Assembly: GCA_024403275.1 (NCBI GenBank)
Contig: JAKSSD010000018.1
Coordinates: 1 to 34,632 of the forward strand
Source: Lachnospiraceae bacterium
GTDB lineage: Bacteria > Bacillota > Clostridia > Lachnospirales > Lachnospiraceae
DNA: 34,632 nucleotides
Direction: 5' to 3'
The notes under the pieces are model-generated. The model was not told the origin of the DNA. It searched no databases and saw only the letters and a list, made by a program, of their open reading frames with translations. Positions within the stretch are counted from its first letter, which is position 1; every line of letters starts with the position of its first letter. Shown one piece after another: positions 3,194 through 4,319 of this stretch. The position numbers and the translations under genes are program-made.

Positions 3194-3311
3194 ACTAAAT
3201 TATTTTAATTCAGCGAAATACTTAATTGTTCAAGAACTATTAAGTTCAAAACACTAAATTATTTTAACTCAGCAAAGTACTTAATTGTTCAAGAACTATC
3301 AAGTTCAAAAA
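3194..3311 (-). repeat. Two tandem 59-bp units echoing the 3' end of gap
   Basis: Units at 3194-3252 and 3253-3311 are about 92% identical (54 of 59 by eye). The next unit in register is the real end of gap. On the minus strand each unit encodes [13 protein letters not shown], the last nine residues of GapA, at exactly 59-base steps (stop codons at 3200-3202, 3259-3261 and, for gap itself, 3318-3320). Each copied tail is preceded by an in-frame TGA, so neither can be translated as part of a longer protein. The coding parts differ among the three copies at four positions, all synonymous third-base transitions. Each unit also holds a small inverted repeat, GAACT-N4-AGTTC (3234-3247 and 3293-3306). 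Confidence 0.92.
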
Positions 3312-3317
3312 GTTATA

Positions 3318-4319
3318 TTATTTTAACTCAGCGAAATACTTGATTGTTCTTACCATCTGTGATGTGTAAGAGTTCTCGTTGTCATACCATGAAACAACCT
3401 GAACTAAGTTGTCTTCACCAACCATAGTCTGTGTTGCATCAAAGAGTGAACCATATGTCATACCAACGATATCTGAAGAAACGATTTCTTCTTCGTTGTA
3501 ACCGAATGACTCGTTAGCAGCAGCCTTCATAGCAGCGTTGATTTCTTCCTTTGTTACAGCCTTCTCAACTGTAGCAACAAGGATTGTTGTTGATCCTGTA
3601 GGAGTTGGAACTCTCTGAGCAGAACCGATTAACTTGCCATTTAATTCTGGGATAACTAAACCGATAGCCTTAGCAGCACCTGTTGAGTTAGGAACGATAT
3701 TAACAGCACCTGCACGTGATCTTCTAAGGTCACCCTTTCTCTGAGGACCATCAAGGATCATCTGATCACCTGTGTAAGCATGAATTGTTGACATGATACC
3801 AGACTTGATTGTTGCAAGATCGTTAAGAGCCTTAGCCATAGGAGCTAAGCAGTTTGTTGTACATGAAGCTGCTGAAATGATTGTATCATCAGCCTTAAGA
3901 TCTGTGTGGTTTACATTGTAAACTACTGTTGGAAGGTCCTTACCAGCAGGAGCTGAGATAACTACCTTCTTAGCACCAGCATTGATGTGTGCCTGTGCTT
4001 TTTCCTTTGATGTATAGAAACCTGAGCATTCAAGAACTACATCTACGTCTAACTCGCCCCAAGGACAATTGTTAGCATCTGGCTCTTTGTAAATCTTAAG
4101 TGTCTTACCATCAACTGTGATAGAATCTTCACCAGCTGTAACCTTATCAGCTAATGCATACTTACCCTGTGATGAGTCATACTTAAGAAGATGAGCAAGC
4201 ATCTTTGGAGATGTTAAATCGTTGATTGCTACTACTTCATAACCTTCTGCGCCGAACATCTGTCTGAAAGCAAGACGACCGATACGGCCAAAACCATTAA
4301 TTGCTACTTTTACTGCCAT
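3318..4319 (-). CDS. gap: Glyceraldehyde-3-phosphate dehydrogenase, type I
   Basis: A 333-residue NAD-dependent GAPDH, oxidising glyceraldehyde-3-phosphate to 1,3-bisphosphoglycerate in glycolysis; the cytoplasmic enzyme is normally a tetramer. The N-terminal Rossmann motif NGFGRIGR (8-15) is present, with Asp34 (INDLT) indicating NAD preference. The catalytic centre is SCTTNC with Cys153 and the partner His180 ([10 protein letters not shown]). Full family length. The start is fixed by AGGAGG upstream of the ATG. It is a single-gene unit with its own promoter and terminator. The 3' end of the gene is echoed twice downstream as 59-bp repeats. In many Firmicutes pgk follows gap directly; here a GGDEF gene lies between them. 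Confidence 0.98.

Follow-up and report, generated by a model that had tools for sequence, protein, structure and literature searches.

What process leaves several copies of the last codons of a gene directly downstream of that gene, with one copy translated, the others silent, and almost all differences between them synonymous? The question is raised by the gap gene for glyceraldehyde-3-phosphate dehydrogenase in a Lachnospiraceae bacterium (assembly GCA_024403275.1, contig JAKSSD010000018.1, positions 1 to 34,632). The whole stretch of 34,632 nt that was analyzed is referred to below as the window, and the untranslated copies of the gap tail as echoes.

The gap locus and its echoes

The gap gene (3318..4319, 333 amino acids) was identified by its open reading frame and the Pfam domains Gp_dh_N and Gp_dh_C; it lies on the minus strand, as do all features of the array described here. 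The first-pass annotation had reported two extra copies of the gap 3' end at steps of 59 bp, and this is confirmed. The three stop codons end at 3318, 3259, and 3200, a repeat search of the window yields three copies with spacings of 59 and 59, and Tandem Repeats Finder gives a single array at 3194-3349 (period 59, 2.6 copies) with a score of 249, the runner-up among its 23 rows for the window scoring 61.

The repeat unit has two parts, a tail of 33 nt and an arm of 26 nt that ends in CTTGATAGTTCT or CTTAATAGTTCT. Following the direction of the gene, the locus consists of (i) tail A with the translated C-terminal codons and the stop codon (3318..3350), as read from the sequence; (ii) arm 1, a spacer plus the tail start in inverse form, CTTGATAGTTC (3292..3317), defined by sequence, folding, and pairing tests; (iii) echo B, an untranslated tail copy in which TGA replaces an Arg codon (3259..3291), found by repeat search, scan of ORF ends, and site count; (iv) arm 2, a spacer plus CTTAATAGTTC (3233..3258), defined by sequence and folding; and (v) echo C, the terminal untranslated tail (3200..3232), found by the ORF-end scan and site count. 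The inverse part of arm 2 matches the ATT of tail B, as that of arm 1 matches the ATC of tail A. After the stop codon, B and C have six nucleotides in common. The repeat search also placed a terminator-like stem-loop in the 3' flank at 3147..3199 (inverted repeat 3147-3164 / 3167-3184). The copies start at the center of an imperfect inverted repeat within gap itself (3339..3358, codons Q-M-V-R-T-I-K), which was recognized by eye and is clearer in the family of genome G455 (SIG710).

Across the nine codons T-I-K-Y-F-A-E-L-K, the three tails differ at four sites, all of them third-base transitions (Ile ATC/ATT, Tyr TAT/TAC, Phe TTC/TTT, and Glu GAG/GAA). The in-frame TGA that had been noted before each copied tail is also present, both echoes having TGA where the gene has AGA (Arg); if counted, it makes a fifth difference, a nonsense one. 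In the echoes of RUI281 and G457, described below, the equivalent codon is CGA.

The echoes belong to this one locus. A search of the window's own genome gave 15 hits, among which one locus is significant and the other 14 have E values of 0.05 or worse. A scan of 2,096 ORF ends (76% over 33 nt within 260 nt) detected an echo only at the window's gap; it covered the window and 40 stretches of the window genome and of genome G015 (UBA3804), spurious ORFs included, with one 20-kb stretch overlapping the window and the gap end of G015 masked by Ns. In Rfam no family reached its gathering score, the best of eight matches in 2900-3600 having 25.3 bits against a required 79, and a known RNA family was rejected on this ground.

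As for the surroundings, a periplasmic-binding-protein-like domain fused to GGDEF (Pfam) is encoded at 508-2847 on the minus strand. A gene with a similar start lies directly downstream of gap in several relatives from the genus, and a pgk-like gene lies there in others, as judged by eye. Farther away, genes of the FtsZ family (24024-25226), penicillin-binding protein (28401-30695), and MraW (31188-32120), all identified with Pfam on the minus strand, form a division and cell-wall cluster on the strand of gap.

Occurrence in other genomes

Arrays of one type, called the main type below, were observed in 11 genomes: the window genome (G000), RUI281, G457, G455, G456 (RGIG5545), G452 (RGIG9437), G529, G576, G619, G744, and G798. 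Their common architecture is the gap body, at least one unit consisting of the coding end of the tail, the stop codon, and an arm of 11-26 nt, and a terminal tail. RUI281 is labelled Lachnospiraceae and SIG710 Oscillospiraceae. Because the search patterns require near-exact tails, all genome counts given here are lower bounds.

The window's genus has a match in 24 of 31 genomes, with extra tails in two, the window genome and UBA3804. In the window's family the exact tail pattern occurs in 165 of 397 genomes, and more than one tail was seen only in the same two (table inspected by eye). The two-tail pattern, applied to genome contigs of 84,980 species, gave eight loci; one of them (L073) is UBA3804, another (L076), with Ns separating its two tails, was left aside, and the six others were read. 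The genus of RUI281, with matches in three of four genomes, added G457, in which at least four tails form a 58-bp array at a contig start (L157:1-240, contig C40) that ends in an arm; this array may be longer, since the contig starts inside it and a piece of gap is found at the end of contig C23. A third genome of that genus, G459, has a single tail. Finally, the junction pattern was found in 8 of the 395 genomes of G455's family, at nine places that all adjoin gap, five of these genomes being new.

Duplications of the tail that are plain or have other breakpoints occur in three genomes, UBA3804, RUG11129, and Epulopiscium AS2M-Bin001. The last of these repeats its flank as well, as a plain duplication would. 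In UBA3804 (L039:3096-3288) a scaffold gap interrupts the gap tail, and after it come two tails that have the same coding end and are spaced by 95 bp. Two genomes have two gap genes each, G798 (contigs C106 and C13) and G493 (C56 and C41), and in G798 one gap copy carries an echo and the other none.

Several candidates were discarded. A tail-like stretch of 28 nt in G039 (L044) sits in an ORF resembling a glycoside hydrolase, as judged by eye, and was taken as a chance match, as was the likeness of L069 and L070 to an arm. G057, G563, G501, and G571 were rejected as a gapped alignment, a terminator, or contig ends. Contigs C7 of G471 and C117 of G534 end within a few nucleotides of the junction, with no sequence beyond.

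Structure and folding of the unit

Unit length is 59/59 bp in the window and RUI281, 58 in G457, 50 in G452, 48 in G456, 46 in G455 and G798, 45 in G744, G576, and G619, and 44/44 in G529. These lengths fall into all three frames, so an echo serving as a readthrough or frameshift tail would have no constant frame, and a second translated tail was rejected since the frames differ between lineages. In-frame ATG or GTG starts are visible by eye in the echoes of RUI281 and absent from those of G457 and the window.

The starting point is constant. All main-type echoes begin at the codon equivalent to Arg-324 of the window protein, and the units lie between codons 323 and 324 of gap, at the center of the natural inverted repeat. 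The last 6-14 nt of the arm, denoted X, approximate the inverse of the tail start. In G455's family the gene reads ATGGTnCGnACCAT or nearly so at the junction, an inverted repeat centered on the codon equivalent to Arg-324, and TGGTGC precedes the echo, which gives TGGTGC-C-GCACCA in most cases; the exceptions on the right-hand side are GTACTA in G455 and GCACCG in the last copy of G529. For the window, RUI281, and G457, the arm reads CTTGATwGTTC (CTTAATAGTTC in the second arm of the window) and is followed by GAACwATyAAG. Thus, the arm sequence differs by lineage and matches the local tail start, following the codon choice of the host. Pairing of X with the tail start exceeds that of shuffled sequences at a combined P of about 2e-10 over nine units, with X boundaries set after inspection and zero counts set to 1/2000; G456 alone gives P 0.18. 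Complementarity of the inner spacer to the tail end has a combined P of 0.034, five of the nine units being at 0.5 or above.

The units are hairpin-forming inserts that leave gap open. The 14 main-type units have folding z-scores of -1.2 to -4.6 against shuffles, the three units of the UBA3804 and RUG11129 duplications -0.1 to -1.9, and the window stretch 3350-3192 with its three tails -4.70. One reading of such folding is that tail and arm form an RNA stem-loop around the gap stop codon, selected for stability or processing of the transcript, the echoes being retained as parts of this 3'-UTR element. The folding of the units speaks for it in G455's family, where eight of nine units (arms of 11 to 17 nt) lie below -12.0, the lowest energy among 104 echo-less gap ends taken with 15 nt of flank, the exception being G619 at -11.6; so does X, which, unlike the variable spacer, is conserved between the window, RUI281, and G457. 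However, when the controls are taken with 26 nt of flank their lowest energy is -15.8, and among the five window-type units only the first of RUI281 (-17.9) passes this value, the first of the window equals it, and three fall short. Moreover, 30 of the 104 echo-less tails pair with their own 15-nt flank at a shuffle fraction of 0.05 or less, and at G744 none of the recoded sites described below is paired. A selected stem-loop would also leave unexplained why the Y-F-A-E-L part stays synonymous in untranslated echoes and why close relatives have no echo. We therefore regard a functional 3'-UTR element as improbable. Hairpin-guided recoding of the gene tail was rejected as well: 15 of the 29 sites that differ between the first and the next unit tail are unpaired, so that pairing does not explain the recoding, although it may play a part at the rest.

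Coding constraint on the copies

The coding constraint on the differences, first noted at the window, extends beyond it: in eight arrays 31 of 33 variable sites are synonymous (window 5, RUI281 6, G457 1, G744 3, G456 6, G452 2, G455 6, and G529 4 variable sites). The two remaining sites are AGA/TGA of the window and an Ile/Val difference in the distal copy of G529, the latter being the sole amino acid change in the main type. Among the 31 there are synonymous changes of the first base, Arg AGA/CGA in RUI281 and Leu TTG/CTG in G456. Random changes would be synonymous at a rate of 0.26 in the nine codons of the window and about 0.27 per change for the arrays, and the chance of four out of four in the window is about 0.005. 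A narrower count, without the Arg codon of the window and without G457, gives 27 of 27 in six arrays. In G576, G619, and G798 the gene tail and the echo are identical over the coding part. The duplication of the other type in RUG11129 has two synonymous and three other changes, and these three are all in the distal copy.

These counts bear on the simplest origins, ordinary slippage of a tandem repeat and the survival of tails from deleted tandem gap genes. The constancy of unit length within each array would suit them, as would the tail duplications with other breakpoints in UBA3804, RUG11129, and the Epulopiscium bin. In the main type, however, an arm follows the inner copies and other sequence follows the terminal one (with the exception of G457, where the array ends in an arm), unit length varies by lineage, and the synonymous sites predominate, so that plain slippage, already considered in the first-pass annotation, fits poorly. 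The suggestion of lost tandem genes finds no support either, as the 11-26 nt from a stop codon to the next tail are far too short and the start codon of the copies is the same in every array. Together, the two origins are very unlikely.

Native and recoded tails

Comparison with echo-less relatives can indicate which of the tails is native. G744 and the echo-less G689 have gap bodies that are 95.5% identical, and the last 99 nt before the junction match at 99/99. The tail of G689 coincides with the echo of G744 (27/27) rather than with its gene tail (24/27). In the same way, the echo-less G490 matches the echo of G456 at 27/27, its gene tail at 22/27, and the last 66 nt of its body at 64/66; their flanks are similar and the terminator stem is the same. 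Downstream of their last tail, both G744 and G456 carry the flank and terminator of the echo-less relatives. For G455, each of the three nearest genomes matches the echo at 25/27 and the gene tail at 21/27. In G455 and G456 the gene tail contains codons that are absent or rare in the gap body of the same genome (TTT, GCG; CGA, TAT, GCA, GAA, TTG), and the echoes use mostly preferred ones, codon usage of the G456 body being taken from its last 122 codons. Thus, it is the translated tail that appears to be the newcomer in G744, G456, and G455, and judging from these alignments a short recoded tail seems to have been inserted, with displacement of the native end downstream.

The situation in the window is opposite. 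Its gene tail is identical to that of the echo-less G026 over 27 nt, and B differs at four sites and C at three. Yet it is the flank after C, and not that after the gene tail, that resembles the flank of G026, including the start of the stem, GACCCGG (by eye). In G529 the gene copy is native-like, and in G452 the gene copy is closer to four of the seven nearest genomes and the echo to two, with one tie. Since the gene copy is native-like in the window and G529, polarity is mixed, and displacement by a recoded tail is claimed here for G744, G456, and G455; elsewhere we describe the arrangement only. Accordingly, the idea of an integration-like scar stands in part: the native-like echo and the odd gene tail of these three genomes agree with it, and the reversed polarity of the window and the search for a recombinase or element, which found none, do not.

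A recoded translated tail beside a native-like echo would also be expected if homologous recombination had brought in a diverged gap allele whose right end was joined illegitimately just before the resident tail. However, the gap body is native up to the junction, with the 99/99 and 64/66 matches in G744 and G456. In addition, the same junction is seen in many lineages. Such recombination is therefore, in our estimate, very unlikely.

Distribution on the gap tree

A tree was built for 42 gap 3' regions of G455's family with seven echo genomes, G619 being left out as too short. The echo label requires six changes on this tree, at least three of them forced by well-supported branches; 8 of the 39 inner branches are well supported. 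Shuffled labels gave values as low as observed in 136 of 500 cases, so the label is scattered rather than clustered on a poorly resolved tree. G744, G576, G619, and G798 have a similar arm, ending in GTGGTGC, and in that group the echo could stem from one gain that was followed by losses in G689 and G772. In the EI group, arms of similar sequence and an intact echo are common to four genomes, in which the flank beyond the echo is of three different kinds; hence, either repeated gains or long upkeep is needed.

Search for a recombinase or a mobile element

Earlier suggestions included genomes with an inserted element or a second gap gene between the copies; among the 11 echo genomes there is none, nor is there a recombinase or mobile cargo between the tails, where only 11-26 nt separate a stop codon from the next tail. 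The pattern of X followed by a tail does not occur away from gap in the 395 genomes of G455's family. Exact-pattern scans of viral contigs revealed no attP-like site, the nine pattern hits lying in unrelated ORFs, and a BLAST search of phages and plasmids with the G457 array had no hit better than E 0.8. The examined parts of 12 gap-bearing viral contigs contain no second tail-like stretch (25/33 or better). No report of an integrase at gap was found in open PMC full texts.

ORFs were listed for four gap-bearing viral contigs (L188, L189, L190, and L192), and the phage genes in three of them are not of the kind sought. In the 41-kb contig IMGVR_UViG_3300018878_002374 a Phage_integrase gene (Pfam; L188:3881-5239) comes directly after gap-pgk-tpiA, as if a prophage were located at the end of tpiA; this prophage-like region with its integrase lies beyond tpiA, not at gap, and was discarded. 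L189 (6446-9005) has a Phage_integrase gene just before a more distant gap gene, with whose stop codon the contig ends. In L190 (1797-5609), likewise with a more distant gap, phage genes (terminase small subunit and D5-like) begin some 430 nt after it.

Possible mechanisms

Insertion with displacement, as a general scheme, is probably correct. Taking place at a fixed point, it explains the constant start, the arm, and the restriction of amino acid changes to distal copies. It also accounts for the tails that are recoded in three genomes and for the flank that G744 and G456 share with their relatives downstream of the last copy. The agent of the insertion is less certain. We tentatively favor recurrent site-specific insertion of miniature end-restoring cassettes at one point, the echoes being older or displaced gap 3' ends. 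A site-specific crossover in the center of the inverted repeat would put the cassette in; its tail would restore the reading frame, so that only synonymous variants survive, and the resident tail would be pushed downstream. Repeated insertions would then build the array, the most distal copy being the oldest. The enzyme would have to act in trans, as the cassette holds no gene.

A site-specific recombinase explains both the recoding and the abrupt junction, and its involvement is possible, if somewhat less likely than not. Against the cassette are the mixed polarity across genomes and the outcome of the searches, in which no enzyme or element was found. The tails retain lineage-specific C-terminal residues (ELK, ELA, EI, and NVK), so that a donor could only be the cell itself or a close relative. 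X matches host codons (GAAC vs. GCACC), a fit for which a recombinase with a fixed site would have no need. To our knowledge, a cassette of 44-59 bp would be smaller than any known element.

The main rival is template switching during replication at the natural inverted repeat of gap. Here the nascent strand would copy the tail, fold back, copy part of it in reverse, switch again at the center of the repeat, and recopy the tail. The product, tail, inverse arm, and tail, could then lose part of the arm, and the unit might slip to more copies. Several observations follow from such a process: the arm ends in an inverted copy of the start of the local tail and varies with the host's codons, the breakpoints lie at the center of the quasi-palindrome, the copies keep the host's C-terminal residues and have identical coding parts in G576, G619, and G798, and the terminal copy would naturally retain the native 3' flank. 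According to PMC8794818, hairpins are created and maintained by template switching. However, copies made in this way should start out identical, whereas the recoded tail in G744, G456, and G455 is the translated one, next to a native-like untranslated copy. In addition, the body up to the junction in G744 and G456 is nearly identical to that of the relatives. No full-length inverse intermediate was seen, and the match of the inner spacer to the tail end is only marginal (P 0.034, as above). On balance, template switching appears rather unlikely, and we retain the cassette as the working model.

Comparison with known systems

Some integrative elements, among them prophages, ICEs, and genomic islands, insert at the 3' end of a gene and bring along a substitute for it. 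The gap inserts are similar in their precise position in the coding end, in the dyad symmetry at the junction, and, in three genomes, in the restoration of the frame by a synonymous tail with displacement of the native one. They differ in having 44-59 bp, no gene, and no recombinase or element between the tails, and in that X follows the codons of the host. CRISPR and integron arrays offer an analogy for proximal addition with the oldest unit in the distal position; proximal addition is possible in the gap arrays, and the comparison is meant as an analogy only.

Rickettsia palindromic elements are described in PMC10969869 as tiny hairpin-forming inserts within genes that are kept open. Like them and like MITEs, the gap unit is a tiny hairpin-forming insert that keeps the gene open. 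Unlike them, it is found at one gene and one site and carries the gene's own end, and dispersed copies are absent, with one significant locus in the window genome. With quasi-palindrome template-switch mutations (PMC8794818), the units have in common the inverse arm and breakpoints at the center of an inverted repeat, the differences being the recoded tails in three genomes and the arrays of constant unit. It is conceivable, though on present evidence unlikely, that the gap units represent a new class of miniature mobile elements: gene-less hairpin cassettes of 44-59 bp that carry a recoded gap end, enter at the center of the gap Q-M-V-R-T-I inverted repeat, form ordered arrays of tails, and depend on a putative recombinase.

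In summary, the data suggest repeated, precise insertion into the coding end of a gene of central metabolism in distant gut bacteria, with the protein kept exactly and an order of gene ends left readable in the arrays. If the mobile-element reading is true, insertion into such a gene would be harmless because the cassette brings its own recoded last codons, and the cassette would be among the smallest, with its recombinase still to be found. If template switching is the cause, gap would be a natural hot spot at which this process can be measured. The pairs of echo-bearing and echo-less genomes, G744 with G689 and G456 with G490, make the question directly testable.
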